A stretch of DNA of 64,000 nucleotides from Zhaonella formicivorans (GTDB lineage Bacteria; Bacillota; DUOV01; Zhaonellaceae). Position numbers and translations under genes: made by a program. The notes under the pieces were generated by a model. That model worked only from the letters and a program-made list of their open reading frames with translations. It had not been told where the DNA came from and did not search any database. Each line of letters opens with the position of its first letter. Positions within the stretch are counted from its first letter, which is position 1. Of the stretch, positions 8,938 to 31,388 are shown in pieces. The stretch is taken from NCBI RefSeq assembly GCF_004353525.1, contig NZ_CP085524.1, positions 1,770,142 to 1,834,141 on the forward strand. The letters are read 5' to 3'.

Positions 8938-8956
8938 GGTACCTCATAAGGAAGTT

Positions 8957-9895
8957 TTAAGGCACAATTCTAGTACCTGTTTTTCCTTCAAGGGCAGCAA
9001 CTAATTCCGTTGGCGACGTAATGATGCCTTCCTTGCCGCCATTCTTAAGGTACCTTAGCAAGGCCATAATCTTTGGACCCATGTTTCCTGGTGGAAAATG
9101 TCCTGCAGCCATGTATGCTTCTGCTTCGGCTATTGTTAGCCTATCCAGTTCTTTCTGGTCAGGTTTGCCAAAATTTATGGCAACTTTATTTACACCTGTA
9201 GATATTACAAGAACGTCAGCTTCAATCTCCTTAGCTAACAACGAGGAAGCATAATCTTTGTCTACAACAGCAGCAACCCCTTCCAGGTTGCCCTCCTGTT
9301 CTACTACAGGTATACCGCCCCCTCCTACACAAATGACAATATATCCGTCATCAATCAAATCTTTAATAGCTTTGATCTCAACCATCGCTTTGGGTTCGGG
9401 GGAGGGTACTACCCGCCGCCAGCCTCTGCCAGCGTCCTCCACTACCTTCCAACCGTCTTCTTTAATATGCCGTTGAGCTTCTTCCCTGGTCATAAAACTG
9501 CCGATGGGTTTAGTGGGGTTCTGAAAAGCCTCATCGTTTTGATCAACTACTACTTGAGTCACAATCGTAATGGCCTGCCTTTTAATCCCTCTGCGGCGAA
9601 ATTCATTCATTAATGACTGCTGGATCATATAACCTATTGCTCCCTGGGTATCAGCCACTGCAAACTCCAAAGGTATCAGCGGCAATTCACCACACGCCAG
9701 TTCCGCACGGCGAATTAAAAAGCCCACCTGTGGTCCGTTGCCATGAGTAATTACAACATTCCAGCCCTTTTCGACCACATCTGCAATATCACGGCAGGTT
9801 TCCCTCATTGTTGCTAGTTGGTCATACAAACCAATGAGTTTTTTGTCTTTAATCAAAGAATTACCGCCTATAGCTATTACTGCCAACTTTTCCAT
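8957..9895 (-). CDS. arcC: carbamate kinase
   Basis: It makes ATP and carbamate (then NH3 and CO2) from carbamoyl phosphate and ADP in the cytoplasm. 312 aa, the standard length. Amino-acid-kinase-family motifs: AIGGNSLIKD at the N-terminus, VITHGNGPQVG near 50, GGGGIPVVEQ near 212, AVVDKDYASSLLA, and a C-terminal GNMGPKIMALLRYL. Start ATG with GGAG upstream. In purine and pyrimidine ring degraders the enzyme is paired with a transcarbamoylase that releases carbamoyl phosphate. Here DUF1116, FdrA and DUF2877 lie upstream on the same strand, but an IS110 element now separates the kinase from them. A role in arginine fermentation with the distant argF is a weaker alternative. Confidence 0.95.
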   Translation of the reverse strand: MEKLAVIAIGGNSLIKDKKLIGLYDQLATMRETCRDIADVVEKGWNVVITHGNGPQVGFLIRRAELACGELPLIPLEFAVADTQGAIGYMIQQSLMNEFRRRGIKRQAITIVTQVVVDQNDEAFQNPTKPIGSFMTREEAQRHIKEDGWKVVEDAGRGWRRVVPSPEPKAMVEIKAIKDLIDDGYIVICVGGGGIPVVEQEGNLEGVAAVVDKDYASSLLAKEIEADVLVISTGVNKVAINFGKPDQKELDRLTIAEAEAYMAAGHFPPGNMGPKIMALLRYLKNGGKEGIITSPTELVAALEGKTGTRIVP

Positions 9896-10306
9896 GTTTA
9901 ACTCACTCTCCTGTTAAATTTTGTTTTTTATTTACTCGACTTTCGCAGATAAGAAACTGCCTTAAAGCCATGGAATTACTAGCTTTTTAAATAAAAACAC
10001 CCCTTGTTTTGGTAAAATAGGTATAGCCAATAACTAAATAACCATCCATGTTTGTAAAACACAACCAGGAATGAAAATAAGTTAGATGACTTGCAAAGGC
10101 TTAATTTTTTGCTACATTGAAATTATCAGGGACAAAGGTTGATTTTATTTTGATGGTATAACCTCGTTAAATAACCTAACCTGATTGCTTTTGAGCACAG
10201 CCAATTGTCGCCCCTTGTTCTTAAGGACTTGGGAACAGCACGGGTGTTAAACTTCTTTCTTTCTCGGGCAATCATCCCTGAAATCCAATGAAGCAGGAGG
10301 AAACTC
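9896..10306 (+). other. non-coding region; candidate IS110 left end with guide (bridge) RNA
   Basis: No gene is supported in these 411 bases. The last 180 bases before the transposase contain several short complementary blocks (for example CCCTTGTTC/GGGAACA-type pairings around 10215-10240). In the IS110 family the non-coding end upstream of the transposase can encode a structured guide RNA that pairs with target and donor DNA. This assignment is by position and family only; no boundary or core dinucleotide could be fixed by eye. Bases 9896-10100 show nothing else. Confidence 0.35.
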
Positions 10307-11553
10307 ATGCAAGACATCCTGGAAATATGTTGTGGTCTTGATGTCCACAAGGAAACAGTTGTTGCTTGCCTCTTGAAAGGCAATCTTAGTGGGGAACCGG
10401 TTAAAACTATCCGCACCTTTTCCACCCTTCTTGCCGGGCTAGATGAACTGAAAGTTTGGCTAGAAAATGAGAACTGTCGGCATGTTGCAATGGAAAGCAC
10501 CGGCATCTATTGGCAGCCTGTATATAACGTGTTGGAAGAAGCCTTTGACGGCAGTATGGTTTTGATTGTTGCCAATGCCCGACATATGAAAAATGTACCC
10601 GGTAAAAAGACCGACATGAAAGACGCCGAATGGATAGCCACCCTTTTGCGCGCCGGATTGTTGGAAGGAAGTTTTATTCCCTCCAAACCTATCCGGGAAC
10701 TCCGTAATCTGACCCGGTACCGCAAAAGTATTATCGAAGAGATTGCGTCGCAAAAGAACCGCATCGAAAAACACTTACAAAGCTGCGGCTTTAAGCTCTC
10801 CACCTTCCTCACCGATATCTTCGGCGTATCGGGCCGGGCGATTATGGACCACCTTTGCCGTCACGGGAAAATATCCGCCCGGGAAGTAGAGAATTTTGTA
10901 AAGGGGCGTGCTAAGAATAAGCTCCATGAGATCAAACAGGCGGTCAATGGCAAAATGGATGTTCATCAAAGAGAGTTCCTAAAGCTATTGTTGGGTTGGC
11001 TAGATCAGCATTACGAGCATCTCCGTCAAGTAGAGCAAAACTTAGAAGAAAAACTGGCTCAGTATCAAAGACAACTAGAGCAACTAGACGGCATACCGGG
11101 CATTGATAAAACTGCAGCAGCAGCCATTTTGGCGGAAATCGGAATTGATATGAGTCGTTTTAAAACCGCTGAACACATCTGTTCTTGGGCAGGCTTAACC
11201 CCCGGTAACAATGAAAGTGCAGGAAAAAAAAGTCCACTCGTACCACCAACGGTAACACCTATTTAAAACGGATCCTATGTGAAGTTGCTTGGTGCATCAC
11301 CCGAATACGTCAAAGCTACTTATCATCCTGGTATTGGAAAATCAAACAACGCCGTGGCGCCAAAAAAGCTCTTGTTGCATTAGCCAGAAAAGTTCTCGTA
11401 ATAATATACAACCTGTTAAAAAATGATGCTGATTACGATGAAACATCCTTTGAAAAAGCCAAACAAAAACAGGAAAAGTTTCGAGTTAAAAGGATTATTG
11501 CTGAAGCTAAGAAACTAGGTCTGGAGGTAATAGAACCTCACGAGGTTGCCTAA
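10307..11553 (+). pseudogene. IS110-family DEDD transposase, frameshifted
   Basis: The first frame (10307-11266) encodes an N-terminal RuvC-like DEDD domain: GLDVHKETVVACL (catalytic Asp), AMESTGIYWQP (Glu), KTDMKDAEWIA (two Asp). Next come a coiled-coil middle and the C-terminal Transposase_20 domain (GIPGIDKTAAAAILAEIG, WAGLTPGNNESAGKK). At a run of eight A residues (11224-11231) the frame breaks and stops early. One extra A restores a continuous frame through STRTTNGNTYLKRILCEVAW to TAA at 11553, giving the normal length of about 415 aa. It could be an inactivating indel, a sequencing error in the homopolymer, or slippage that makes a full product. It has a good ribosome binding site (GGAGGAAACTC before ATG). 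It is inserted antisense to the catabolic cluster. Confidence 0.88.
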
Positions 11554-11949
11554 CAGCTACAATGGTTTTTCCAAAAGAATTAATTTCACTGATGCAAGAT
11601 CTGCATTGGCTAGTTAATTATTACCTTTTTACGGGTTATCCTGGTTGGCATATGCAGTTGTTAAAGAACATTTCAAATTTATTTTCGTGTTAATACCAAA
11701 ACAGAAAGGGAGTTCTTGTAACGTCAATTTTACCAATAAGTACGACCGATAGAAATAAGGAGGCCGGCTTTCCCGTTGGTTATCCGTTTGTACGCCTTAG
11801 TGCATTTTCCCATTATTGTTAGTATCGTAAAAGCAAAACTGGTGAGCCTGTAAACACTTAACATGGTATTCCCCATGTCACAGGTCTGGGCTTTGCCCCG
11901 ATTAAAAACCGCAATAAAAGTTTACCAACATGAAACAACGGGGAAGCAT
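11554..11949. other. non-coding gap, IS110 right flank
   Basis: 396 bases between the IS transposase stop and the NCS2 permease stop. It must contain the IS right end, but no inverted repeat or coding frame with a ribosome binding site is visible. No convincing terminator for the permease was found, which fits an operon originally continuing to arcC. Confidence 0.4.
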
Positions 11950-13248
11950 TTATTTTTCTTTCTGTCTTTGAGGCAATACCTGATTAAGTATAATGGCTGT
12001 TATACCCCCTACCACAACACCGGATCCTAGGATGATCGTAAGGTAAGATGGCAGATGTTCTAATGCACCTTCTGAATGCAGCCCAAAACCCATCCCTAAA
12101 GCAACTGAGATAGCAAAAATGAACATCTCACGTTCCCCAAAGCCTTTCGCTTCGCGGAACTGTAAAATACCTGACCCTGCAATTGAGCCAAACATTACCA
12201 AGGCAGCACCACCTAGTACTGGCGCAGGCATACTAGCAATCAGAGCCGCAAATTTTGGTACAAGGCCCATAAGCAATAATATAATGCCACTGACAGCTAC
12301 GGCAAAGCGACTGGCTACTTTTGTAATGCTTATCACACCAATGTTCTGACTAAAGGAAGTGATTGGTAACCCATTAAATAAAACTGCAATTGATGACATC
12401 AAACCGTCAACACTGATTGCTCCGGATAACTCGCGCCGACCTATTTCCTTATTAGCTACCACACCTGTTGCATAAGTATCACCTATAGTTTCCAGCATTG
12501 AGGCAAATTGCGCTACCAGAACCGCTAAGATCGCAGGAAATGAAAACATTGGCATCCCAAAGGAAAATACTTTTGGTACAGCAAACCATGTTGCCTCCTT
12601 GACCAGTCCGAGATTCAATACACCAACGATACCTGCAGACAGGTAACCTATAACAATAGCCAGAGCAACAGATATAGAAGGCCAAAATCCCTTTGTAAAT
12701 TGGTTTACCAAAATCAAAGTCACTAAAACCAATCCACCAATAGCAAAACTTATTGGCTGACCAAACAGTGGGCTTTCCCCACCTGCTAACCAAGTAAAAC
12801 CTAGGGGCATCAATCCCATACCAATCAAGACTACAACAGTTCCTGTAACAACCGGAGGTACATATTTCTGAATACGCCAAACGAAAAAACTAAAAACAAA
12901 CTCCACAATACCGGCCACAATTGCTGCTCCAAAAATAGCCTGGATACCCAATTGAGAACCCACGCTTATAAATGGAGAAATAAAGACAAATGCTGTACCC
13001 ATACATATAGGGAGGCGAGCACCAAGCCTACCAATACCAAGGGATTGAACTAATGTCCCGATCCCACTGGTTAAAAGCGAACCTTGAACGAGAATAGTAA
13101 TCTGTTCGCCGGGTAATTTTAAAGCAGCGCCAACCATTAGTGGTACAGCTACGATGCCAGCAAACATAGCCAGGACATGCTGGATCCCATACATAATTAG
13201 GTATGGGAGGGCAGGTTTTTCGTCTACACCAATAAAATGACGACTCAC
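11950..13248 (-). CDS. NCS2-family nucleobase permease (uracil/xanthine type)
   Basis: 432 aa with about 12-14 hydrophobic segments. It opens with the NCS2 hallmark YGIQHVLAMFAGIVAVPLMVG and holds the transport-core motif QFASMLETIGDTYATG (Glu in TM8) and the second half-helix GLPITSFSQNIGVISITKVASR with the family Asn-Gln. It imports a purine, uracil or a related cyclic amide in symport with a cation. Exact specificity is not readable, although the QNIGVI variant is common in xanthine/urate and uracil carriers. The start is GTG with GGAGG seven bases upstream. As the next-to-last gene of the cluster it is the obvious candidate to import the ring substrate opened by the neighbouring amidohydrolase. 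Confidence 0.92.
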   Translation of the reverse strand: MSRHFIGVDEKPALPYLIMYGIQHVLAMFAGIVAVPLMVGAALKLPGEQITILVQGSLLTSGIGTLVQSLGIGRLGARLPICMGTAFVFISPFISVGSQLGIQAIFGAAIVAGIVEFVFSFFVWRIQKYVPPVVTGTVVVLIGMGLMPLGFTWLAGGESPLFGQPISFAIGGLVLVTLILVNQFTKGFWPSISVALAIVIGYLSAGIVGVLNLGLVKEATWFAVPKVFSFGMPMFSFPAILAVLVAQFASMLETIGDTYATGVVANKEIGRRELSGAISVDGLMSSIAVLFNGLPITSFSQNIGVISITKVASRFAVAVSGIILLLMGLVPKFAALIASMPAPVLGGAALVMFGSIAGSGILQFREAKGFGEREMFIFAISVALGMGFGLHSEGALEHLPSYLTIILGSGVVVGGITAIILNQVLPQRQKEK

Positions 13249-13341
13249 TGTTTTTCCTCCTCTTCATATATCACCTTATTCAAGTAATTTATGGCAATAA
13301 GGGTGTCCATCTAGCTGCTGGAGTCTTGAATGACAGAGGGT

Positions 13342-13788
13342 CTACCTGTGAATTACTAGGTTTACACCAATTAATAAAAAGATTATGCCAATGAAACGCA
13401 TTGAGTCTAAAGCTATTCGAGGAGCGCCTAATAGACCATAATGATCGATTACTGCTGCCATAATCAGTTGACCCGTAATCGCCGAAGAAAGTACCCCTCC
13501 CGCACCGAGTTTGGGAATAATCGTCGTCATTCCAAGTACGACAGCAGCACCGATTGCCCCTCCCATATAATAAATAGGGTTGACCTGGTTAAGGACGGCA
13601 AAATTGAAAGGTTCTTTAGCAAAACAACGATAAATCACGACTGATATTATCAGCAGCAATGAACCAATAAAAAAAGAAATTGTGGAAGCCATCAGGGGGC
13701 CAGTTGTTCGGGCCAACCCAGCATTTATCACCGGCTGAAGCGCCCATATAGCTCCGATGCTAAGGGCCAAAAAGAAAAATACGAGCAT
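13342..13788 (-). CDS. YdcZ/DUF606-family membrane protein
   Basis: About 148 aa with five predicted membrane segments, the size and pattern of the half-length DMT-related YdcZ family. Diagnostic stretches are ALQPVINAGLARTTGPLMASTISFFIGSLL in two consecutive blocks, GGAIGAAVVLGMTTIIPKLGAG, and FIGIIFLLIGVNLVIHR at the C-terminus. Members act as small exporters or as half-transporters that dimerise; substrates are mostly unknown. ATG at 13788 is chosen because AAGG lies eight bases upstream; the frame also allows a GTG nine bases earlier. It lies between the ring-opening amidohydrolase and the NCS2 permease on the same strand, so it may export or exchange an end product of the pathway. That role is inference. 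Confidence 0.85.
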   Translation of the reverse strand: MLVFFFLALSIGAIWALQPVINAGLARTTGPLMASTISFFIGSLLLIISVVIYRCFAKEPFNFAVLNQVNPIYYMGGAIGAAVVLGMTTIIPKLGAGGVLSSAITGQLIMAAVIDHYGLLGAPRIALDSMRFIGIIFLLIGVNLVIHR

Positions 13789-13867
13789 GACCTTCACCTT
13801 AATCTAGTTATGTTAAGCTACAAAATACCATTCAGGGGGCCATTGATAATGGGCCCCCCTTTCCTTC

Positions 13868-14971
13868 CTACACTCTGGCAATAACAGCTATTGGACCGCC
13901 GCCATCAGGTCCTTGGTGCTCTGCACCACCTGAAACGTAAACCATGGGATCTCCTACCACGCTGGCAATAACAGCATTTACTACCGCTCGTGCCGATCGA
14001 GTATGATTAATATCAGAATCATCAAGCATAGTGTTACGACGACCCCTAACTGTACCAGAAGATGAAGCCTCAGCCTTTGCCAATACATTTACGATCTTAG
14101 CAAGCTCTTCGGCTGGCGGGCAACAATCGAATTTTAACCCGGCATCTTTAAGGGCAGTGCGTACTGCATCAGCGTCAATGGCATCCTTCATAACAGAGTG
14201 CCCAATAACCAAATCGCTGGCACTATTGGTAGAGTTTCCTACTACGATAATTTCATCATTAAGGAGTTCAACCCCGGCTGACGTCGAAGCCACACTGGAG
14301 TAGAGATTCCAGTCATGACAAATGGCTTCATTGCTAATCTTATCCGCAGATATCTCGCCCAGTGCAAGAGCAACTCCGAGAGCTGAAGCTCCACGTGAGT
14401 AAGCCATTGATTTATAGGTGTCGTTTACCGCAACATCTTTTCCACGTCGCTTGGCATCCTCAATTCTTTCAGCAGTCAAAAGCGGGCACTTAATCTGAAC
14501 AAAGTGAACATCGCGGGGATCATCTATTTGGGCATCTTTCATAGCCTCTTTTACAGCTCGAGCCACTTCGTTTACCTGTTCCATGCGGCCCAATTCTTCC
14601 GGCAAAAAATCCCGCGTAAAAGCTACGCCTACTGCCAAGCGTTTTCCCGGCTTAGCCGGTTCCTGGACATCTTTTCGGACAAATACAGTAAGGTGCGGCG
14701 TCATGACACCCTCAGTACCACCTGACATTATAAACGCAACTTTTTTCACAACTTCTTCGTAACTTATTCCCAATTTTTCTGCTACATACAACGCTAAAGA
14801 CTGGGTGGCAAAACCGCGAGTAAAATCGTTAACACAGCCATTACCTTCTGTTTTGCCCAGAATAGCAACAATTTCAGCCGGATTAATCTCCCCTGAATCA
14901 ATCAAAGTAGCCAACCCGCTTATATCATCAGGTGAGGCTGTTGGGATACGAAAAACTTCAACTTTTTGCAT
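13868..14971 (-). CDS. ring-opening amidohydrolase, cyanuric acid hydrolase/barbiturase family (AtzD/TrzD-like)
   Basis: It hydrolyses a cyclic imide ring: cyanuric acid to carboxybiuret (then biuret and CO2), or barbiturate to ureidomalonate. 367 aa, the family length, built of three similar domains. Three Lys/Ser pairs of the unique Toblerone-fold active site are visible: Lys40 (LGKTEGNG) with Ser83 (SGGTEG), Lys161 (KCPLL) with Ser231 region (SVASTSAG), Lys299 (AKAEASSSG) with Ser347 ([14 protein letters not shown]). From memory it is very similar to the characterised Moorella thermoacetica cyanuric acid hydrolase; an alignment is needed. ATG follows GAGGGGG. It is followed by a permease and preceded by DUF1116/FdrA/DUF2877, so its product probably feeds a carbamoyl transfer. 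Confidence 0.93.
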
Positions 14972-15005
14972 GTTAAAACCCCCTCATTTTTTAATAAACT
15001 CATTG

Positions 15006-16427
15006 TTAGCCAACTGTTAAAATAATTTCAGCAAGACGACGCAGTGCTGCTATAAAACACTCCATTGGTGCCCGGACAAGACCGGCCCCGACCTGTCCCA
15101 CACCTGCCTCACGGTGGGCAATACCTGTATTGATGATCGGGTTAATGCCTGTTTCAACAACCTTTAAAACATCAATCCCTGTTGGGGTTGACCGAAAACC
15201 AAGGTTGGGAATAGTGTAGGCAGGGTTTGAGGTCAAAGTAATATTGTACATCTCTAGGGTATAGTTAAGGGCATCCTGAGGGGTACCCCCTACAAACTGC
15301 ACAATAGCTGGTGCCGCTGCCATAGCAAAACCGCCAAGACCGCACGTTTCAGTAATAGCGCTATCTCCTAGATCAGGGTTAGCATCTTCATCATCGTACC
15401 CAGGAAAATAGAGCCCTTTAACATATGGTGCCGGGGATGTAAACCACTCATTACCAAGCCCGCTGACGCGAATACCAAACTCTACCCCATTTCGTGCCAT
15501 AGCCGTAACAAGTGTACTCCCTTGGATTCCATGTGCAGCATCGAGGGTTGCCTTACAGGCGGCCATGGAAATATTGAGATAGAAGTGATCATTTTTCGCC
15601 AGGAAAGAAACAACCTCCTCCAGTTTATTAGGTGGATAGGTCTTAACTAACGCAGGCATCAAAGTACGTATCAATAAGGAAGTTGCCGCCAGGTTGCGAT
15701 TGTGGCATTCATCTCCCATCTGGAGAGCTTTAGCAGTAAGAGTCTTTAGGTCTATACCACCACATGCCAAAATGGCATCGCGTAACGCCGGTGCTAGGAC
15801 ATCACGAATCCAACGCAAACGCTCTATTATTTCAGGAGAATTGGCCCCGAAACGCAGGACCTTGCCCAAGCCTTCATTAAAGTTTGAGTATGCCCGGTTT
15901 CCAGCGGCTTCATTTTCAACAACAAAAACTGGCATAGAAGCTGAAATAATCCCGGACATTGGACCGACAGCGCTATATTCATGACAGGGAGCAAACTTTA
16001 TTTCGCCGCTAGCAGCCAATTTCTCAGCTTGCTCTGCATTATCTGCCAGGCCTTCATAGATAAGAGCGCCAATAACAGCACCACGCATAGGGCCGCACAT
16101 TTTACTCCATGTAATCGGGGGGCCAGAGTGCAATATCATATTACGTTCGAAGCCAGGAATTACGTCGCCAGCAAGCTTGACATCAACCAGTTTCGGTTGT
16201 GCTTCTAGTAAACGATTGATAGCTTTTTGATTGGCAGTGTTAATTACATCAATATTTTGTTCAATTAAGGCCAACAGTCTGACAAGATGCGGGTCGCCAT
16301 TGGCAGGCGGTCTCCATTCTACATGTATATTAGCGACGCCCAGCGAAGTCAAGTTATTGGCAAAAGAATCAAGCCCCACATTAACAACCTTGACAGGGCC
16401 ATTAATTAAATTTCTACTTAAAGTCAT
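15006..16427 (-). CDS. DUF1116 protein, AllG/YlbE-like carbamoyltransferase subunit
   Basis: 473 aa, whole-length DUF1116 family (E. coli YlbE/AllG, YahG). Conserved family stretches seen: HVEWRPPANGDPHLVRLLALIE near the start, IPGFERNMILHSGPPITWSKMCGPMRGAVIGALIYEGLA (about 120-160), CHEYSAVGPMSGIISASMP, DECHNRNLAATSLL and NGVEFGIRVSGLG. In E. coli the trio FdrA (AllF), YlbE (AllG) and YlbF (AllH) forms the oxamate carbamoyltransferase that phosphorolyses oxalurate. Start ATG with GGAGGG upstream. It follows fdrA with a two-base gap and precedes the ring-opening amidohydrolase by 34 bases, so translation is probably coupled. Substrate here is inferred from context to be a linear ureide from the ring opener. 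Confidence 0.9.
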   Translation of the reverse strand: MTLSRNLINGPVKVVNVGLDSFANNLTSLGVANIHVEWRPPANGDPHLVRLLALIEQNIDVINTANQKAINRLLEAQPKLVDVKLAGDVIPGFERNMILHSGPPITWSKMCGPMRGAVIGALIYEGLADNAEQAEKLAASGEIKFAPCHEYSAVGPMSGIISASMPVFVVENEAAGNRAYSNFNEGLGKVLRFGANSPEIIERLRWIRDVLAPALRDAILACGGIDLKTLTAKALQMGDECHNRNLAATSLLIRTLMPALVKTYPPNKLEEVVSFLAKNDHFYLNISMAACKATLDAAHGIQGSTLVTAMARNGVEFGIRVSGLGNEWFTSPAPYVKGLYFPGYDDEDANPDLGDSAITETCGLGGFAMAAAPAIVQFVGGTPQDALNYTLEMYNITLTSNPAYTIPNLGFRSTPTGIDVLKVVETGINPIINTGIAHREAGVGQVGAGLVRAPMECFIAALRRLAEIILTVG

Positions 16428-16429
16428 GA

Positions 16430-17992
16430 TTAAACCCTCCGGTTCTCGTGTAACTTGATAATCCTGCCCGCCGTCCGAGCTGCTTCCGCATTGGATGGTA
16501 AGACAAAAATTCCTTCTTCTTCGAGGACTTTAACCTGTTCACTAAGAGGTTGCGGGTCGGCTTCGGTACCACACACAAAGGCAATTACTGCCGGATTATT
16601 GCTCGGATAAGCATCCCGGGCACGGGCCACTGCGCGGGCCAGTTCCCCTGCCGGGTCAGCGTGACTCCCGTAACCAGTTACTACATCACAAAGGATAACT
16701 CCTACCTCCGGATCAGCATACTCCTGCATTAAACGTTCGTTGCGAGGAAAGGGATCAATCATTGGATGTGGACGCCCTCTTGTAAACTCGTCATCCCCTA
16801 AATCCACAATGGTATGCTTGTGGCTTTTCCTTGCTGAAGGTAATTTTAGTTCTGGTTTTAATGGGATATTGGAGAAGATATCCCCGATGATATCGCTGAG
16901 TATCACCATTGCCTCGTCGGCTAGGGTGCCCCCCGTAAACAGGCCCCGTATATAACGCTGGTTCGGGCACAGCTGGCGCTCCAACACTGCCATCTGTTCT
17001 GAATAATCCCCCCAGTAAGTTTCCGGTATGGAAACTGCTTCTTCTCCATTGGCCAAAGCGACTGCCTTATAAGCCGCATCTTCGATGGTTACTGCACCCA
17101 CAAAACCAGCTGACCTAATGATATTCATATCGCCTTTTAGCAAATTTACTATTACGGGTTTCTTACACTGCTTAACCCTATCCAGTATTTTTTTAGTTGT
17201 CTGTGGTCCAGCAGGTTTTGAAATCAATAAAATAACCTCAGTCGAAGGGTCATTTTCAAGAAGATCAATACCGAGAAGCATCATTTGCCCACCAACTTCA
17301 TCTAAGAGGTCTCTGCCTCCGGTTCCTATGGCATGGGAAATGCCTCCTCCCATACGCTCGATCAGAACAGTTGCTTCTTGAATACCGGTTCCTGAAGCAC
17401 CAACTATCCCTATTTTGCCACGAGAAACAACGTTGGCAAAAGCAAGGGGCACGCCATCAATAATTGCCGTACCGCAATCCGGCCCCATTACCAGCAATCC
17501 TTTCTTAGTTCCGATTTGCTTAAGCCAGACCTCATCTTCCAGGGAAACGTTATCACTAAATATATGCACGTTAAGTCCCAGGTTTAGTGCTTTAAGCGCC
17601 TCTGTTGCTGCATATATTCCTGGCACAGAGATAAGGGCTAAATTAGCACCTGGTAAAGCCTCTACTGCGCTTCGTAAGGTCTTAGGAGATTGCTGTTTAG
17701 TCTCACCCTGTTGTACTTCGGCACGGTTGAGAAGTTTTTCCGCCAATTCCAAAGCTTTTTGTGCCTGCTTTTCTGTATCTGACGCCACGATTATCGCCAG
17801 ATCATCGGCATTGGCAGCAGCAACTTCAGGTACCAACATCCCTATATTTTCTAAAGTGCTCTTGTTCAACTCCGTCGCCATAATTACAGAAGCATGCTTT
17901 ATCCCCTCTTGCTTACTGAGTTCAGAAGATAACTTCATTAGTTTTACAGAATCCTGATACATCTTTGGTTTAATTAACCATCTAATAACCAC
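16430..17992 (-). CDS. fdrA: FdrA-family protein, AllF-like carbamoyltransferase subunit
   Basis: 520 aa, typical FdrA length. It resembles succinyl-CoA synthetase alpha in architecture: an N-terminal domain with YQDSVKLMKLSSELSKQEGI, a Rossmann-like segment GKIGIVGASGTGIQEATVLIERMGGGISHAIGTGGRDL (about 195-235), and ligase-like VILLISKPAG and PVIVNLLKGD. A C-terminal part has LFTGGTLADEAM, DEFTRGRPHPMIDPFPRNERL and CGTEADPQP. It is a subunit of the AllFGH oxamate transcarbamylase in enterobacteria. The start is GTG overlapping the end of the DUF2877 gene by 11 bases, with GGAG upstream. A CoA-ligase role is unlikely given the constant partnership with DUF1116, DUF2877 and carbamate kinase. 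Confidence 0.92.
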   Translation of the reverse strand: MVIRWLIKPKMYQDSVKLMKLSSELSKQEGIKHASVIMATELNKSTLENIGMLVPEVAAANADDLAIIVASDTEKQAQKALELAEKLLNRAEVQQGETKQQSPKTLRSAVEALPGANLALISVPGIYAATEALKALNLGLNVHIFSDNVSLEDEVWLKQIGTKKGLLVMGPDCGTAIIDGVPLAFANVVSRGKIGIVGASGTGIQEATVLIERMGGGISHAIGTGGRDLLDEVGGQMMLLGIDLLENDPSTEVILLISKPAGPQTTKKILDRVKQCKKPVIVNLLKGDMNIIRSAGFVGAVTIEDAAYKAVALANGEEAVSIPETYWGDYSEQMAVLERQLCPNQRYIRGLFTGGTLADEAMVILSDIIGDIFSNIPLKPELKLPSARKSHKHTIVDLGDDEFTRGRPHPMIDPFPRNERLMQEYADPEVGVILCDVVTGYGSHADPAGELARAVARARDAYPSNNPAVIAFVCGTEADPQPLSEQVKVLEEEGIFVLPSNAEAARTAGRIIKLHENRRV

Positions 17993-18887
17993 TACTCAGC
18001 ATCTCCTTTCCGTTTTCCAGGGCCAACAGCAATCCAATAGCTGTATCTGTACCTGAAGATGCACCCCTTGCTAGCAATTTTTTCATGCTAACGCCAACTG
18101 CTTCTGGCTCTCCCTCCGCAATTGCCTTTAGCAAGGCTGTGAGCGGTTCCATATAGTACCCTCTACAAGCCCACCTGATATGTGTTTGGCTAATTTCGTT
18201 TGTACGTGCAAGGGATGACAGCACTTTAGACTGCATCATTTTTTTAATCTCCCAGGCGCGGGAACTTATGGCAGATATTAAATCCAACCCGCTCATGTAA
18301 CCCACAAGCAGATCATCCCCAGATGGAGTCAAACCTGGTCCCAAACCCAATAAATTTTTAACTGCTTCATCCGCAATAAACTGCCATTCATTTCGGTTCC
18401 AGTTTATCCGGAGGAGATCGATGCCCTGCTTACCTCTTTGCATTACAACCTTATCGAAAGGGTCACTGGTACAGGGAGCACCGCCGTTAAGGGCGCAAAG
18501 CATTGGACCCTTACCGTAAGTAAATAAATGTGACCACAAGGAATCCAGACACAAAGACTTAAGGCCAAAATCGCGTGGCGGGTCAATACGTGCTGCATAA
18601 ATGCATCTCCTCATTAACAAAACCTTGTTGATGCCAGAAGTTGGAACTTTAGTAAAAACTAAGTGTTCCCCAGCAAAGATGCGATTGTATAAGGAGTTCC
18701 ATTCATGTTCGCTCAGCAGCACATTAATGGGTCCATGCCCTATAGACTGGCTACCTACACAAATGAGTCCAGCCGGGGCTCGGCAATACAATGAACTTTT
18801 AAATATGGAAATTACTTCAGTAGAAGTCTGTTTTTCTATAGTCCTCCAGGCCCCTATACCTACAGAAAGAGCCTCCAAAACATCCAC
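17982..18887 (-). CDS. DUF2877 protein, AllH/YlbF-like carbamoyltransferase subunit
   Basis: 301 aa. Family features: SQSIGHGPINVLL in the N-terminal domain, and the strongly conserved LLGLGPGLTPSGDDLLVGYMSGL around 196-218, followed by SQTHIRWACRGYYMEPLTALLKAI and a C-terminal GASSGTDTAIGLLLAL. The GxGLTPSGDD block is the hallmark of DUF2877. It is the third member of the fdrA-DUF1116-DUF2877 trio. The reading frame opens with GTG at 18887; a TTG nine bases further on has a better-spaced AAAGGG, so the start is uncertain by three codons. It is overlapped by fdrA and preceded by the permease by 11 bases. Confidence 0.9.
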   Translation of the reverse strand: MDVLEALSVGIGAWRTIEKQTSTEVISIFKSSLYCRAPAGLICVGSQSIGHGPINVLLSEHEWNSLYNRIFAGEHLVFTKVPTSGINKVLLMRRCIYAARIDPPRDFGLKSLCLDSLWSHLFTYGKGPMLCALNGGAPCTSDPFDKVVMQRGKQGIDLLRINWNRNEWQFIADEAVKNLLGLGPGLTPSGDDLLVGYMSGLDLISAISSRAWEIKKMMQSKVLSSLARTNEISQTHIRWACRGYYMEPLTALLKAIAEGEPEAVGVSMKKLLARGASSGTDTAIGLLLALENGKEMLSSGY

Positions 18888-18898
18888 CCTTTCTTCAC

Positions 18899-20137
18899 TT
18901 ACAGGAAGAGACCTAATATAACCAACAACACAAGAACCCCTAGCACATATGGCGCATTATTGCGTACAACTCTTTCAATTTCCATTTGGAATGTCTGGGA
19001 GAGAGCAGCAACATTAATCTGAACAGGACTCATCTGCGTTCCCATACCGATCGCCAGGGCCACAAGTCCCATTTGTAAAGGAGTAAGGCCGACAGCAGCA
19101 AGAACGGGAACCACCAGGCTAATTACGCCAACGCTATACGCTCCAGCAGGTACAGCTACAATGAAGCCAGCTAAAATTGCTGTCGATACAAAAACAAAAG
19201 GTGGGGCACTAGCCGCAATCTGAGCTATATATTTAAAGGTACCAATTTCTGAAAGAATATTTATAAAACCAAGGAAAACACCGATTGTAAACAACCGCGT
19301 CAGGATGAAAGATGAACCTTGAACTAAATTCTCAGCCATATTATCTATTGAGTATTTTGTTAAAATTGTTGCCAGAACAATAGTGGTGATCATGTTAAAA
19401 GGTGGTGTAAATACATGGTAACCGCCAAATAACATATTGTTTAAATACTTACCGGCGACAACTACAACAATAAAGTAGAGAGGTGGAAGAGCAGTTCTTA
19501 TTAACTGGCCCATGGGCATGGGTTCATTGTTTTCTTCATTCAAAATATGTCCCCGCCGCCAAACTCCATAAGATGCCAGGGCAATACCAATTATCCAAAA
19601 TAAGATCGTAAATGGAAACATTGTGTTAACATAGGTGCCAACATCTATCCCTGCAATTTTAGCAATTGTGGCACTCTCGGCAGAAGCTGGGGATGTCTCA
19701 AAACTCGCTGCTGTTGCAATCGCCATACCTGCAATTAGCTCAGGAACTGCTCCTACAGCAGCAAATGCCAATGGACCTGTTACCATTGTATTTCCTGCAC
19801 CAAGACCAGCAGCGTAAGTTGCTAGTGCCTGAATGAGCACAATAGCACCAGCGACTAGATATACTCTATTGCCGGTGATTTTCCGACTTAGCCGAAGCAG
19901 AGCATCAAACCCTCCTGTCTTGGCAACAGCAAGGGCCGTCGCGGAATACATAATTGGTGTTGTCATAGACATCATACCGGGAATAGCGTCCATGATTATT
20001 TTTGTTGCTGACGCCAGACCCATATGACCGATAATCATAGCAACGATTGCACCGCTGATACCCGCGACTATCATATGCTTTTTCATAACAAGGACGACAA
20101 TGATAACAAGAAGCGGCAAAAGTACAATTGCACTCAT
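18899..20137 (-). CDS. ion-transporter-superfamily permease (DcuC/CitMHS/GntP-like)
   Basis: 412 aa with 11-12 hydrophobic segments and a short cytoplasmic loop after residue 190 (WRRGHILNEENNEPMPMG). Re-entrant-type motifs in both halves are GLGAGNTMVTGPLAFAAVGAVPELI with SFETSPASAESATIAKIAG, and VPAGAYSVGVISLVVPVLAAVG with IGMGTQMSPVQINVAALSQ. These match the IT superfamily of dicarboxylate, citrate and gluconate carriers. ATG with AGGAGG seven bases upstream. First gene of the cluster behind the PucR regulator gap. A likely job is import or antiport of an anionic substrate or product such as oxamate, malonamate or an organic acid, but no substrate can be read from sequence. Confidence 0.8.
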   Translation of the reverse strand: MSAIVLLPLLVIIVVLVMKKHMIVAGISGAIVAMIIGHMGLASATKIIMDAIPGMMSMTTPIMYSATALAVAKTGGFDALLRLSRKITGNRVYLVAGAIVLIQALATYAAGLGAGNTMVTGPLAFAAVGAVPELIAGMAIATAASFETSPASAESATIAKIAGIDVGTYVNTMFPFTILFWIIGIALASYGVWRRGHILNEENNEPMPMGQLIRTALPPLYFIVVVVAGKYLNNMLFGGYHVFTPPFNMITTIVLATILTKYSIDNMAENLVQGSSFILTRLFTIGVFLGFINILSEIGTFKYIAQIAASAPPFVFVSTAILAGFIVAVPAGAYSVGVISLVVPVLAAVGLTPLQMGLVALAIGMGTQMSPVQINVAALSQTFQMEIERVVRNNAPYVLGVLVLLVILGLFL

Positions 20138-20569
20138 TTTTTATCCTCCTAACAAAATCCGTTTTAAATACAACCGTCTATTCTTCCATTTTTTATTTTT
20201 AAAACTTAACCCTCCCAAAAGAACGACTCGTTATTATATCTCCTCCCCTTAACCTCTGCGTGCCTATGCAATCTAACTGTACGTCGACATCTACACGAAA
20301 CACATAAGATTGGTATTCCATGGGCCACAGCCTGTTCTTCAGCGCGGCGAACCCGAGGCTATGATATTATTCACCTCCGCCGCAAAAACATTTCTGGTAA
20401 TTAGATCCAATTACCTATATCCGGACATTTGTAGTTTAACACTGCTAAGTCAACCACTCTATGTCAAATACATACAAAAGACAACGCTTTAATTAGTCAA
20501 ATATCAACAAGTTAAATCATAATATAAATAAAAAACACCACCGAATAAACGGTGGCCATATACTTAAAG
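20138..20569 (-). promoter_or_regulatory. regulatory gap of the ring-cleavage cluster
   Basis: 432 bases between the permease start and the pucR stop. A TATAAT lies on the minus strand at 20233-20238, about 95 bases before the permease ATG, but no good -35 accompanies it. This would suit an activator-dependent promoter under PucR. Apart from the terminator at its right end nothing else is recognised; no purine riboswitch aptamer was seen. Confidence 0.4.
20527..20555 (-). terminator. terminator of pucR
   Basis: Stem CCACCG/CGGTGG with a 6-base loop followed on the minus strand by TGTTTTTTATTTA, placed 15 bases after the pucR stop codon. Confidence 0.88.
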
Positions 20570-22231
20570 TTAATTTCCTTTCATGTGCAGGATTTTAAGG
20601 GCAAGCTGCAGGTTCAAACGATCATCCGGAAACTTTAAATCAAGACCAGTAAGTTGTTGTATCCGGTTTATGCGGTATCTCAAAGTATTATAGTGAATAA
20701 ATAAGGCATCAGCTGTTTTCTGTAGGTTCATATCATTAGCAAACAGCATCTCCAACGTTGCAATTAGACCGGCTTTATTTTTTTCATCGTATGAGACCAG
20801 TTGGCCTAAGATATCGTCAAAGAAACATCGCATCTCTACCGCATCAGAAGACAATAAAATGCGGTATACGCCCAAGTCGTCAAAGTGTAAAACTTGGGCA
20901 CATTCGTAAGCACGCCTCCCGATTTCCAGGGCCTGTTGGGATTGGTTTATGCCTTCAGCAATCTTCATGGGGTCGGCAATAAAGCGGCTAATCCCAACTA
21001 GTATTCGTGTGTCTAACCGCTTTGTTAACTCTTTACAACAGGAACGGGCCAAAGTCTCAGCATTTCTCCGCAACTGTTTAGTATCTTTACCTGGCAGAGG
21101 GCGGTGCAGGACCATTAACCGTCTTCCCATCTCGACAACCGCTGATCCCGGAGATAATGAAGCAACAGTTGTATTTACTATCTCCATCATCTTAAGCCGT
21201 TTCTTACGGGCAAACAATGGCTCCTGATCGTAAAGCGATTGCAAATCATCACAATCAAATAACATGACTGTAAAACCATTATTAATTTCCCACCCAAATC
21301 TTTCGGCCAAAATGATCGCATCTTCCTTTGAGGTAATTTTACCATCCACGAGATATTCAATGAAGCTGCTTTTAAACCTGCACTCTACATCAAAGACAGC
21401 CCGTTGCTTGCTTATTTCCAAAGCAATTACAGTAACTGCCTGATCGATACCGGTTTTATCCCGTTCAGAAATAGGCTTTTGGGGTTCCCAGATAAACAAG
21501 TATGCATAAATTTCCTCGGCAACTGTAACAGGGCGACATCTGGCATATAACCCACCGGCATAATTGAATACCAATTGTTCCCTACCATCCTTACAGGCTT
21601 CTGCCAGCTGTTTTCTATCATTTACCAGTTCAGCCAGTGCCCGGTTCTTATCAGTACCAAAATCGCGGGGCTCTAACCACGAAGCTATCTTACGGAAAAA
21701 AGGATCATGAATGGAAACCGGCAGTCCCAGTAAGCCGGCTAAAGTCCTCGCGATCTCAGCCAGCCCTCCGCCATGTAGAACTATATCGGTTAAGGCTTTG
21801 CTAAGTTGTTCATTCCTTTGCAGGATGGCTGCCTGGCGGTTTAAAATTTCAGCCAAAATAGGATTTATAATTTCATTAAATGATGCGCTGTTGGGCAATT
21901 TAATCAAGGGAAACTTGTATTGGTTGGCCTGCTTAATCATAATCTCTGGAATCTCGCAGATATAGCGTTCCGGCTTTATAGCCAGCGCAGCCAATCCACA
22001 TTTGTTTAGTTCGGGTATCAAATTTTCTAGAGCTTTGAAATCATCTTTAATAGGATAAGCGGTTGTCAGCAAAAGCTCTGCGGGTTTTATATAACTTCCT
22101 ATGTCTGGTACTTCCATGATGTTCACAGAATTGATTATACGATCAAGTCCCTGTTCGCCGCCAACCAGTACTGCTCCCTCCATCTGAGGCAAGCTCAGCG
22201 CCTCTCTTACAGTAATTCCCATCATCAGCAT
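20570..22231 (-). CDS. pucR: PucR-family transcriptional regulator
   Basis: About 553 aa. The N-terminal PucR ligand-sensing domain occupies residues 5-130 (GITVREALSLPQMEGAVLVGGEQGLDRIINSVNIMEVPDI, TTAYPIKDD). A middle GGDEF-like PucR domain lies at about 285-420, and the C-terminal HTH_30 at about 490-550 (MNLQKTADALFIHYNTLRYRINRIQQLTGLDL). In Bacillus PucR activates purine degradation in response to ring breakdown intermediates. Here it stands immediately upstream of the fdrA/amidohydrolase cluster on the same strand, with its own terminator, so it is the probable regulator. The start is placed at the ATG 22231, five bases after AGAAGG; a GTG six bases earlier and two further ATGs are possible. 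Confidence 0.92.
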   Translation of the reverse strand: MLMMGITVREALSLPQMEGAVLVGGEQGLDRIINSVNIMEVPDIGSYIKPAELLLTTAYPIKDDFKALENLIPELNKCGLAALAIKPERYICEIPEIMIKQANQYKFPLIKLPNSASFNEIINPILAEILNRQAAILQRNEQLSKALTDIVLHGGGLAEIARTLAGLLGLPVSIHDPFFRKIASWLEPRDFGTDKNRALAELVNDRKQLAEACKDGREQLVFNYAGGLYARCRPVTVAEEIYAYLFIWEPQKPISERDKTGIDQAVTVIALEISKQRAVFDVECRFKSSFIEYLVDGKITSKEDAIILAERFGWEINNGFTVMLFDCDDLQSLYDQEPLFARKKRLKMMEIVNTTVASLSPGSAVVEMGRRLMVLHRPLPGKDTKQLRRNAETLARSCCKELTKRLDTRILVGISRFIADPMKIAEGINQSQQALEIGRRAYECAQVLHFDDLGVYRILLSSDAVEMRCFFDDILGQLVSYDEKNKAGLIATLEMLFANDMNLQKTADALFIHYNTLRYRINRIQQLTGLDLKFPDDRLNLQLALKILHMKGN

Positions 22232-22512
22232 ATACACCTTCTACCAATAGAATCCGGGCCACCTGTTAATTTAAAAAATACACTAAATCGGCTCTTTGCT
22301 ACTTTTATATGAGCCTTTTGCATAATTTTGGGGCTCAATTTTTACATCCAAAATTATTTTAACATAAAACACCTACACAGCCTATTAAACCCTATTTGAA
22401 CTTAAGGATGGAAAAGCTTCCCAGAGATTTTTGCCTTTCACTAAGTTATACGAATTGAGTCCACCATTTTGCTTCTTTTAAGTTTCTGTTTAGCCTCCCC
22501 AAAACCTCTTTA

Positions 22513-24847: not shown

Positions 24848-25336
24848 TTATTTCGGGCGTGAGTTTTGTATTAGAATTCTACTTGCCTTTTGCACAGCCG
24901 CCACAATCCGCTGATACCCGGTACAGCGGCAGAGGTTGCCTGAAATTCCAGTGCGAATTTCTTCAATTGAGGGATTAGGATTACTATCCAGCAGCGCTTT
25001 TGCGGAAAGAATCATGCCGGGCGTACAGTAGCCGCATTGAATGGCTCCCTCCTCAACAAACGCCTGCTGTAAGGGATGTAGGTTTCCCGGGCTGCCTAAC
25101 CCCTCAATAGTAGTAAGCTCCCTACCAACGGCTTGCACAGCCAGTACCAGGCATGAATTAACTGCCTTGCCATCCAGGAGAACGGTACAAGCCCCGCAGT
25201 CGCCCTCTCCGCAACCTTCTTTTGTGCCCTTTAAACCAAGGACCTCCCTGATGAAATAAAGCAAAGTTCGATGTTCCTCTACCTGAGCTCGAATTTGCTT
25301 GCCGTTGACAGTCATAGCCAACTCAACCAACGCCAT
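24848..25336 (-). CDS. xanthine dehydrogenase-type hydroxylase, [2Fe-2S] subunit
   Basis: It carries electrons between the molybdopterin and FAD sites of a three-subunit Mo-hydroxylase. About 162 aa. The N-terminal plant-type ferredoxin cluster is CGEGDCGACTVLLDG plus C (NSCLVL). The C-terminal helical cluster domain has QCGYCTPGMILSAKALL and GNLCRCTGYQRIVAAV. ATG at 25336 is preferred because GGGGGG lies seven bases upstream; it overlaps the FAD-subunit gene by 14 bases. It is the last gene of the purine operon. The Mo subunit is encoded about 6 kb upstream in the same operon. Substrate is most likely xanthine/hypoxanthine by context, though other heterocycles are possible. Confidence 0.94.
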   Translation of the reverse strand: MALVELAMTVNGKQIRAQVEEHRTLLYFIREVLGLKGTKEGCGEGDCGACTVLLDGKAVNSCLVLAVQAVGRELTTIEGLGSPGNLHPLQQAFVEEGAIQCGYCTPGMILSAKALLDSNPNPSIEEIRTGISGNLCRCTGYQRIVAAVQKASRILIQNSRPK

Positions 25337-26198
25337 AATTATTCCCCCCAAGTCCCGCTAAAGCATATAAGGCACGGCCTGCCAGCACTTTGGCCAACTG
25401 CCGCCGGTAGCTAGCTTCTGCCCTGATGTCGGAAATGGGACAAATGTCACTGTCCACCAGTTCCTGAGCCTGTGCAATTACAGTGTCATCTATTTTTTGC
25501 TGCAACAAATAGGATTCAACCCTTTTTGCCCTTACCGGTGTAGGCGCTACAGCACCCAAGGCAATTCCTGACCCGGTGCATCTCCCCTCAGGGTTCAGTT
25601 CCAGGTAGGCAGCCAGGTTAACGACAGAAATAGCCAGTGCGTTTCTTTTGCCGCATTTATAAAAAATGGACTTGCCGCCGGGATTGGCCCTGATGGTCAC
25701 CTTGCTGATCAGTTCCGTGGGTTTTAACAGGGTTTTCCCCGGTCCAAGGAAAAATTCAGCAACCTTTACTTCCCTTGAACCTTCAGCGCTTACCAGCGTT
25801 AAGACTGCATTCAAGGCCAGTAGCGGGGAAACTGCATCAGCCGCCGGAGAGGCACTCTGCAAATTGCCGGCCAACGTGCCCCGGTTTCTGATTTGCGGCC
25901 CCCCCACTACCCTTGCGGCCATCCGCAAAGCAGCAAAGGGGCCCATTAAAAGCGGGCTTGCCGCCAAATCCGCATGGGTAACCAGGCCGCCAATTTCCAG
26001 CATATCGCCGGTGAATCTTATTTCCCGCCATTCCTCAAGCCGAGATAAATCAACCAAAACTTGAGGAGCTACTTTACCACGGCGCAGATCCACCAGCACA
26101 TTGGTCCCTCCCGCTACCGGCAGCAATTCCCCCCGGTTTTCCCGCAGCAGTTCCAAAGCCTCGCAGGCGGTTCGTGGGGTTAAGGTTTGAAAGCGCAT
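25323..26198 (-). CDS. xanthine dehydrogenase-type hydroxylase, FAD-binding subunit
   Basis: About 291 aa, CoxM/XdhB-type. Two FAD-binding motifs are visible: LPVAGGTNVLVDLRRGK near 30 and RNRGTLAGNLQSASPAADAV near 105, followed by the C-terminal CO_deh_flav_C domain (GIALGAVAPTPVRAKRVE). It passes electrons from the iron-sulfur subunit to NAD+ or ferredoxin. The start at 26198 is chosen for AGGAGG just upstream; an in-frame ATG 36 bases earlier has no such site. It overlaps the [2Fe-2S] gene and follows the 147-aa hypothetical gene by 46 bases. Confidence 0.93.
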   Translation of the reverse strand: MRFQTLTPRTACEALELLRENRGELLPVAGGTNVLVDLRRGKVAPQVLVDLSRLEEWREIRFTGDMLEIGGLVTHADLAASPLLMGPFAALRMAARVVGGPQIRNRGTLAGNLQSASPAADAVSPLLALNAVLTLVSAEGSREVKVAEFFLGPGKTLLKPTELISKVTIRANPGGKSIFYKCGKRNALAISVVNLAAYLELNPEGRCTGSGIALGAVAPTPVRAKRVESYLLQQKIDDTVIAQAQELVDSDICPISDIRAEASYRRQLAKVLAGRALYALAGLGGNNYGVG

Positions 26199-26244
26199 CT
26201 TCCCCCTCCTCGTCTCGCTACTTTTAAGTTCCAAAACATGGTAA

Positions 26245-30191: not shown

Positions 30192-30216
30192 AGCCTCACC
30201 TCTGAGGAATGATGGA

Positions 30217-30236
30217 GGGCCTGGCCTCCCAGGCCC
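30217..30236 (-). other. intercistronic stem-loop between BMP lipoprotein and ATPase genes
   Basis: Perfect 8-bp stem GGGCCTGG/CCAGGCCC with a 4-base loop and no T-run, just past the lipoprotein stop. Such hairpins protect the upstream mRNA end and raise binding-protein output over the membrane subunits. Confidence 0.7.
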
Positions 30237-30246
30237 CGTATTAACA

Positions 30247-31287: not shown

Positions 31288-31388
31288 TATGGAACCTCCT
31301 TTTCTTCTGAACCTTAAAATGAGATCCAAACACGAGATTCACTGGCTATGATTTTTCTATTCTACCACCTCACTTTCAACTGGTATTT

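Follow-up and report, generated by a model that had tools for sequence, protein, structure and literature searches.

A predicted phosphorolytic route for the breakdown of cyanuric acid in a gene cluster of Zhaonella formicivorans

Cyanuric acid forms the core of the triazine herbicides, arises from melamine and serves as the chlorine stabiliser in pools and disinfectants. For its breakdown, two or more hydrolytic routes are described, among them the AtzD-BiuH route of Rhizobium and the atzDGEHF route of Pseudomonas ADP (PMC6219798). The window analysed here, i.e. the whole stretch of 64,000 nucleotides from Zhaonella formicivorans (contig NZ_CP085524.1, positions 1,770,142 to 1,834,141), carries a gene cluster in which an AtzD-family enzyme stands together with transporters, a carbamate kinase and the three subunits (AllF/FdrA, AllG/DUF1116 and AllH/DUF2877, hereafter the trio) of a predicted carbamoyltransferase. 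The hydrolytic routes share their first step and their substrate with the window, but their later steps are carried out by hydrolases without energy capture, and neither BiuH nor AtzF was found in the window's own genome. We consider it probable that these genes specify a further, third way of degrading cyanuric acid, phosphorolytic and not hydrolytic, in which the trio would release carbamoyl phosphate and the kinase would use it to make ATP.

In the arginine deiminase and agmatine pathways, phosphorolysis gives carbamoyl phosphate, from which carbamate kinase makes ATP; their carbamoyl phosphate chemistry is like that proposed for the window, but the transferase belongs to an unrelated family and the substrate is different. 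The same three families as in the window, together with a carbamate kinase, are found in the oxamic transcarbamylase AllFGH of E. coli and its kinase AllK; in the cell, AllFGH makes oxamate and carbamoyl phosphate from oxalurate, and its assay ran in reverse, starting from oxamate and carbamoyl phosphate (PMC11326118). The window trio differs from it in lying elsewhere in the tree, in having no allantoin genes alongside and in being paired with AtzD and transporters. In comammox bacteria and ammonia-oxidizing archaea, allFGHK adjoins biuH, so that AllFGHK stands next to biuret genes much as here, but the authors found no atzD and interpreted allFGHK as a separate use of oxalurate (PMC12625717). 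As to the ring opener, the cyanuric acid hydrolase of Moorella thermoacetica (6bum and others) resembles the window enzyme in full-length sequence, dyads and specificity signature; the words "operon" and "gene cluster" were not found in the available text of the paper on it (PMC6557486), whereas the window enzyme sits in a cluster. Within the open-access literature searched, where PMC12625717 was the one paper that came up, both the pathway and the plasmid module reported below appear to be undescribed.

The ring opener and the trio

The window AtzD exceeds the cut-off of the NCBIfam equivalog model for cyanuric acid amidohydrolase (scores in Table 1), and its best solved relative, matched over the full length, is the Moorella enzyme 6bum; barbiturase 5hwe, which belongs to the same family, gives 333 bits. 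In an alignment to AtzD of pADP-1, the three Lys/Ser dyads are kept (K42/S85, K162/S233 and K296/S344), and the window enzyme has, at all 5 positions, the residues R195, T321, R325, G345 and G346 that distinguish cyanurate enzymes (PMC3758960), while the barbiturase signature (N195, H321, K325, V345, S or A346) is not found in it. Dyads and cyanurate signature are also kept in the 14 other AllFGH-linked enzymes compared and in that of Aminobacter sp. SR38. The ring opener of the window is a predicted cyanuric acid hydrolase of the Moorella type. Elsewhere, three loci (L187, L188 and L189) encode degenerate AtzD-like proteins (K42Q, S85I and K296N; R195K, R325K and G345A) and have two tandem AllG genes plus AllF and AllH, L187 and L188 additionally carrying allantoinase and AllC relatives; L190, in genome G326, encodes an AtzD relative with the T345/R346 signature of the uncharacterised group IV, with a very divergent AllG 12 kb away.

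AllF, AllG and AllH are all present in the window, in the same families as E. coli AllFGH according to profile matches; for AllH there is no solved relative by sequence, and its model gives no fold match at E 0.001. At its start, the window AllG has a segment of about 50 residues that matches the end of the FdrA model (NF004760 506-553), and in E. coli (L127 13681-16617) AllF is longer and AllG shorter than in the window, as if this segment had shifted between the subunits. Three genes for catabolic carbamate kinase score above the TIGR00746 cut-off in the whole genome, the copy in the window being one of them.

Association of AtzD with the trio in genomes and on plasmids

The earlier note had proposed for this cluster that an AtzD-family enzyme works together with an AllFGH-type trio and carbamate kinase, and co-conservation supports this functional link. 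In a survey of 398 genomes of the phylum (AtzD as PF09663, AllG as PF06545), AtzD was found in 12 genomes and AllG in 59, with both in 10 (Fisher p 1.3e-7), and the two lie less than 4 kb apart in 8 of the 12 AtzD genomes; in three of these eight (G137, G217 and G367) the protein is a degenerate AtzD-like one, and G000, G015, G211 and G236 are close kin as regards the cassette. AtzD and AllG are on separate contigs in G162, with AllF, AllH and the membrane protein PERM beside AtzD (L192), and 12 kb apart in G326; G218 and G348 have AtzD without AllG, the AtzD of G348 being a fragment. PERM, an anion-transporter-like protein that serves as the marker of the module, is present in 6 of the 398 genomes, each of which has a cyanurate-type AtzD and AllG. 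The earlier note had held that its proposal would fall if the ring opener and the trio were not co-conserved in related genomes; they are, in this survey, at the AtzD loci and on plasmids.

Flanking genes were compared at the best 80 of at least 564 confirmed AtzD loci of species genomes (at least 595 candidates), i.e. among the nearest relatives and not as a full survey. A quick AtzD tree places 11 of the 80 in the window's clade, and in the flanks of these AllF/AllG were found at 8 of the 11 loci, PERM at 9 and carbamate kinase at 8, each against 0 of the 69 others. These counts follow the tree for L048, a 3.8-kb Actinomycetota contig with no space for neighbours, which is among the eleven but which the flank count had put among 70 non-linked loci; for L045 and L056, two of the three window-clade loci without flanking AllF/AllG, AllG lies elsewhere in the genome. 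Besides L048, the clade includes Enterococcus aquimarinus, Huaxiibacter chinensis, three Amphibacillus, Proteiniclasticum, and metagenome-assembled genomes (MAGs) of Tepidimicrobium, Acholeplasmataceae, Rubneribacter and Erysipelothrix; we take the named members to be fermenters or facultative anaerobes and most of the 69 others to be respiring bacteria of soil and water. Cohnella and Paenibacillus, also Bacillota, fall outside the window's AtzD clade and have AtzF and BiuH relatives nearby. The idea that hydrolases stand beside AtzD in all other bacteria was discarded, given that AtzE, AtzF or BiuH flank just 12 of the 70 loci counted as non-linked, and the contrast therefore rests on the presence of AllF/AllG, PERM and the kinase and not on hydrolase adjacency.

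In a 49-row tree of concatenated AllG and AllF, supported branches force the AtzD-linked rows, 16 in number, into four separate places, and at least four gains or losses of the AtzD link are required; when 14 AtzD-linked rows are constrained to one clade, the log-likelihood is 688.7 lower and the topology is rejected (p-AU 2.75e-79). The tree omits L190 and L181 as well as one copy of each AllG pair in L187-L189, and scores L193 (G162) and L202 (G400) as AtzD-linked although AtzD lies on another contig of the same genome; the one-clade test also leaves out L046, L184, L044 and L171, which are near-copies or half-empty, with SR38 added. The pairing hence arose or re-arose several times, which fits selection for joint function better than hitch-hiking. 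No AtzD-linked row groups with the oxalurate trio of E. coli (L127), which forms with those of E. aquimarinus (L195), L182 and L197 a clade of its own, with 100 SH-aLRT and without the window. Enterococcus aquimarinus has three trios, one AtzD-linked, one amid allantoin genes and one further. AllB-E markers were absent from the flanks of the AtzD modules L043, L044, L046, L047, L049-L052, L056, L183-L186 and L192, and neither the window cluster itself nor the flanks of L183-L185 showed allantoin or ureidoglycolate genes, a search that did not extend to the remainder of the own genome.

Two generalizations from this tree were not kept as first framed. That allantoin-linked trios form one clade had to be softened: L127 and L195 lie amid several allantoin genes, but L182 has nothing more than an AllC relative, L197 lacks allantoin markers throughout its 18-kb stretch and received its label once the grouping was known, and L172 (allantoinase relative, 31%) as well as L187 and L188 (AllB and AllC relatives) are placed elsewhere. 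Position 207 of AllG is Ile or Leu in 16 of 16 AtzD-linked rows and Met in 26 of the 30 others, SR38 (Met) and an AllF-AllG fusion of E. faecalis (Ile) being counterexamples; as a specificity residue it is post hoc, four pairs cannot reach 0.05 in a sign test and two rows are contrary, so that it is a weak lead.

AtzD was found by tblastn in 132 plasmid records. An 8.9-kb block with the order PERM-AtzD-NCS2-AllH-AllF-AllG-carbamate kinase, taken as query from the Klebsiella pneumoniae plasmid p19-10_02, matches 50 plasmid records, 47 of which cover at least 80% of the block (three are partial), with identities of at least 99% in 47 cases and of 95-99% in three. The module moves as a unit. Thirty-six of the 50 plasmids are predicted to be conjugative, and nine genera are represented, namely Citrobacter (18), Klebsiella (11), Enterobacter (8), Leclercia (5), Raoultella (4), and Escherichia, Aeromonas, Shewanella and Serratia with one each; several of the records are labelled shower or drain. 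In three plasmid records examined, IS26 or Tn3 elements lie near the module and no allantoin genes travel with it; among 5,426 complete E. coli genomes, no near-identical match to it turned up. PERM occurs on 57 plasmid records, including the enterobacterial module and pieces of it, with relatives on pSR8 (46%) and on pADP-1, its twin record, pTC1 and an Agrobacterium leguminum plasmid (37%), short pieces in two Paenarthrobacter records, and an E. faecalis cluster that has AllD but no AtzD.

The module, here as PERM-AllF-AllG-AtzD-kinase-amidohydrolase-ABC transporter-DUF2877, is also found on an IncP plasmid of Aminobacter sp. SR38, a soil alphaproteobacterium which we take to be an aerobic atrazine degrader. 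The description of the route as fermentative in the earlier note is too narrow in view of this plasmid; likewise, a restriction to fermenters, first hinted at by the named loci, was weakened by SR38.

Related arrangements were seen on other plasmids. An E. coli ColV plasmid (L161 10282-15275) has DUF1116, carbamate kinase, a cytosine permease and LysR, and in the AllG+AllF tree its trio and the one in the plasmid cyanurate module are sisters; 96 Escherichia plasmid records match the window AllG (193 rows in all). A cluster with allophanate hydrolase, ABC transporter, formamidase, BiuH and a second cysteine hydrolase (L213 8883-17750) is present on 19 enterobacterial plasmid records; on p19-10_02 it is separated from the cyanurate module by about 16.5 kb, and a further allophanate hydrolase of the same plasmid is annotated as two pieces.

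The proposed pathway and the substrate of the trio

In the proposed pathway, the NCS2 permease and/or PERM may handle cyanurate or a product, and the ring would be opened to carboxybiuret, the product published for near relatives of the hydrolase. The AllFGH-type carbamoyltransferase would then use phosphate to cleave the terminal ureide of the ring-opened product, giving carbamoyl phosphate according to the general reaction R-CO-NH-CO-NH2 + Pi -> R-CO-NH2 + carbamoyl phosphate, the known case of which is E. coli oxalurate. The kinase would carry out the last step, carbamoyl phosphate + ADP -> ATP, NH3, CO2, which is the reaction of its family. Where present, biuret hydrolase would rescue biuret arising from decarboxylation and supply allophanate. 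The candidate substrates oxalurate, carboxybiuret, biuret and allophanate have the end -NH-CO-NH2 in common, and carboxybiuret and allophanate are carboxylates like oxalurate. The earlier note had already suggested that the trio could release carbamoyl phosphate from the opened ring, and the gene context speaks for it. Carboxybiuret decays within minutes (PMC6557486), and Pseudomonas ADP uses it before decay (PMC6219798).

The hydrolases of the known routes were searched for in whole genomes. In the own genome, the Rhizobium BiuH query, itself a match to the solved BiuH 6azo at 533 bits, gave 0 matches, urease alpha gave 0, and the allophanate hydrolase model TIGR02713 caught a single GatA-like frame of 492 aa at 214 bits against a cut-off of 511; as for AtzE/AtzG, this frame is the sole amidase caught by that related model, and no separate AtzE search was made. 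The earlier observation that the window holds no intact biuret or allophanate hydrolase can in this way be extended to the genome, while a broken copy, as the word "intact" would imply, was not seen. Among 17 AtzD genomes, 16 have AllG, and allophanate hydrolase is above the cut-off in one, G218, the genome without AllG, at about 2 kb from AtzD. Urease alpha is above the Pfam cut-off of 23 bits in 4 of the 17, with a full-length match of 194.7 bits in Huaxiibacter (G399) and partial matches of 24-26 bits in the other three, which we take for other amidohydrolases. No BiuH relative of more than 34% identity was found in 9 of the 16 AtzD+AllG genomes (G000, G015, G211, G236, G208, G399, G404, G405 and G406), a set that includes the window genome and in which some members are drafts or metagenome genomes; these nine have no close BiuH or allophanate hydrolase, and therefore no known next enzyme except the trio (with AtzE not searched separately). 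At L180 (5051-9134), L049 (1245-4967) and L056 (7082-10779), pairs of membrane proteins of 501-519 aa, mutually 42-57% identical and with no Pfam family at E 0.001, bracket a BiuH relative.

Several results weigh against the phosphorolytic route as proposed. The function of the trio beside AtzD is predicted from context and from the E. coli case. A BiuH relative, 52-60% identical to the Rhizobium enzyme, is present in 7 of the 16 AtzD+AllG genomes, where biuret hydrolysis is possible and the trio may act later, on allophanate, or otherwise. The quick AtzD tree (95 rows) gives 98 SH-aLRT for a 21-row set that includes three degenerate AtzD-like rows and L048, but a careful tree of 42 rows (41 picked from the 95, plus SR38, with the three degenerate rows left out) supports the linked clade at only 80/78 and leaves SR38 outside, which weakens the notion of a single AtzD clade for the linked loci; the linked set itself was defined from gene context before the AtzD tree, but after the anaerobe loci were known. 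A separate cluster of biuret, guanylurea and allophanate hydrolases is present on 3 of the 50 module plasmids, and for Aminobacter SR38 the argument from saved ATP is weaker. In one E. faecalis record, PERM and an AllFGH-type set stand beside ureidoglycolate dehydrogenase (AllD) without AtzD; PERM is therefore not tied to cyanurate alone.

The alternatives differ mainly in what the trio would act on, and the likelihoods given to those on the exact substrate overlap with that of the phosphorolytic route instead of excluding it. The foremost of them is that free biuret is the substrate, i.e. that the AtzD product decarboxylates and AllFGH converts biuret to urea, to be excreted, and carbamoyl phosphate. 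This is possible, though we would not favour it: biuret to urea is the simplest single step, carboxybiuret is short-lived (PMC6557486), a close BiuH is missing from nine of the 16 AtzD+AllG genomes and allophanate hydrolase above the cut-off from all 16, and urease alpha at full strength is found in 1 of 17; on the other hand, a BiuH relative is kept in seven of the 16, where it would be needless if the trio used biuret well, and the sole measured member of the family uses a carboxylate, oxalurate/oxamate (PMC11326118). An unlikely version is that the trio phosphorolyses allophanate only, supplied by BiuH or another enzyme, and so replaces AtzF alone. The co-occurrence of a BiuH relative and the trio in seven AtzD genomes agrees with it, as does G033, a genome without AtzD which has BiuH, kinase and PucR with AllF and AllG 73 and 72% identical to those of the window, the closest outside the Moorella type, and which fits the use of biuret or allophanate by the same type of trio; the nine genomes without close BiuH would nevertheless need another source of allophanate. 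From the seven genomes with BiuH we would argue that biuret is a poor substrate for the trio, and from the nine without it that allophanate is not its sole substrate; this pattern favours carboxybiuret together with allophanate, and we hold with modest confidence that carboxybiuret and/or allophanate are likelier substrates of the trio than biuret.

Other alternatives would detach the trio from cyanurate. It could be an ordinary oxalurate (oxamate) carbamoyltransferase whose adjacency to AtzD reflects shared regulation of ureide nitrogen use, in keeping with the identity of the protein families to those of E. coli AllFGH, the interpretation, in a metagenome study, of comammox allFGHK beside biuret genes as oxalurate degradation (PMC12625717), the E. 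faecalis PERM cluster with AllD, and the allantoinase and AllC relatives at the degenerate loci L187 and L188. We rate this slightly lower still than the allophanate-only version, although the softened view of the allantoin-linked clade raised it a little and lowered the phosphorolytic cyanurate route to a similar small degree. Against it, no AtzD-linked row groups with the E. coli and E. aquimarinus trios amid allantoin genes, AllB-E markers are missing from the flanks of the AtzD modules listed above, E. aquimarinus has a separate allantoin trio, and the plasmid module carries no allantoin genes in the three records examined. The earlier note had also allowed barbiturate as the substrate, with the amidohydrolase as a barbiturase and the trio cleaving ureidomalonate. 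Ureidomalonate is a close analogue of oxalurate, and the two enzymes are of one family, but the equivalog match, the match to 6bum, the complete cyanurate signature (PMC3758960) and the tight-binding inhibition of the Moorella enzyme by barbiturate (PMC6557486) led us to discard this substrate, and the barbiturate pathway is highly improbable. For the phosphorolytic cyanurate route, there is finally a far-reaching form that we regard as speculative and improbable as a whole, in which one carbamoyltransferase acts twice (carboxybiuret + Pi -> allophanate + carbamoyl phosphate; allophanate + Pi -> carbamate + carbamoyl phosphate), AtzD, AllFGH and the kinase alone would give 3 NH3 + 3 CO2 + two ATP per ring, cyanurate would support anaerobic growth for energy, the module would spread on conjugative plasmids in human-associated bacteria, and such a module would have been the source of atzC.

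Layout of the cluster, its mobility and its relatives

The genes named by the earlier note were all found on the minus strand at the positions it had given (Table 1), and the bounds it had drawn agree with the block that aligns to other genomes. Two parts, the YdcZ-type protein and the IS110 transposase, had not been mentioned in it. From the permease (20137) to NCS2 (11950), the genes adjoin with short gaps or overlaps on a single strand. Taken as a whole, the earlier interpretation stands in part: the link of AtzD, trio and kinase is supported, and the barbiturate substrate is not.

Table 1. Features of the cluster in the window (positions are those of the window)
Feature	Position	Strand	Basis
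PucR-type regulator	20570..22237	-	PF07905, PF13556
PERM membrane protein, anion-transporter-like, module marker	18899..20137	-	10 hydrophobic segments; model; without Pfam family
AllH/DUF2877, subunit of predicted carbamoyltransferase	17982..18887	-	PF11392 90.2 bits
AllF/FdrA, subunit of predicted carbamoyltransferase	16430..17992	-	NF004760 513 bits against cut-off 433; solved relative 3dmy
AllG/DUF1116, subunit of predicted carbamoyltransferase	15006..16427	-	PF06545 332.6 bits; solved relative 3clq, "uncharacterized protein"
Predicted cyanuric acid hydrolase (AtzD family)	13868..14971	-	NF052395 590.5 bits against cut-off 360; 6bum 727 bits; dyads and signature
YdcZ-type small membrane protein	13342..13797	-	PF04657
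NCS2 nucleobase-type permease, probable cyanurate importer	11950..13248	-	PF00860; TIGR03173 455 bits
IS110-family transposase, between NCS2 and carbamate kinase	10307..11266	+	PF01548/PF02371
Carbamate kinase (ArcC/AllK type)	8957..9895	-	NCBIfam TIGR00746 385.8 bits against cut-off 358.25
Limits of probably transferred cassette	8940..22310		89-95% DNA identity to L183/L184, IS110 part excepted

The block in the last row of Table 1 aligns to two genomes of another GTDB family (G015 and G211; loci L183 and L184), which, judged by their AtzD, are probably Moorella. The DNA alignment is interrupted at IS110, where it stops at 9933 and restarts at 11858, and in L183 also at 20206-20375; beyond the block, no DNA similarity was found between window positions 4001-26000 and the 20-kb loci. 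An 84% identical copy of the YdcZ-type protein sits between NCS2 and AtzD in L183. With those of G015 and G211, the proteins of the cluster share 84-98% identity, while a helicase of the window has matches of only about 25% in these two genomes; therefore, the cassette was probably exchanged between lineages. In G236, congeneric with G015 and G211, the module matches at 74% DNA identity, the PucR gene is inverted and the helicase is 70% identical. Upstream of the cluster, the window encodes xanthine dehydrogenase-type subunits, adenine deaminase and an ABC transporter (24848-38000), and on the opposite side an ornithine carbamoyltransferase (2434-3420).

PERM has no Pfam family even at E 10. 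Its model (pLDDT 78.8) resembles VcINDY/TRAP-type transporters, with 19 fold matches at E 0.001 or better (1.1e-6 to 7.3e-4; TM by query 0.37-0.68), a weak but consistent likeness to divalent-anion and TRAP transporters.

Traces of such modules were also seen around atzC, a gene of the atrazine pathway. On the atrazine plasmids pADP-1 (L126 7798-12704) and pTC1 (L214 4862-10080), atzC adjoins a carbamate kinase, 49% identical to that of SR38, with a PERM relative (38% to the window's) across an IS5 element and an AllG remnant on the kinase side (a truncated 174-aa open reading frame of 62-63% identity on pTC1, 68 aa of 74% on pADP-1); pieces of AllF or AtzD were not seen around atzC on these two plasmids. 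Five amidohydrolases that lie within AllFGH or PERM clusters share 30-35% identity with AtzC, and atzC was probably captured from a module of the AllFGH/PERM type. The AllG piece, the carbamate kinase and the PERM relative around atzC on pADP-1 and pTC1 make this origin testable.

If the proposed pathway is true, the phosphorolytic route would make cyanuric acid an energy source, and it would explain the use of cyanuric acid hydrolase in many anaerobes. It would also add a second substrate class for the newly found AllFGH carbamoyltransferase, and allFGHK clusters called oxalurate genes would then merit revisiting.

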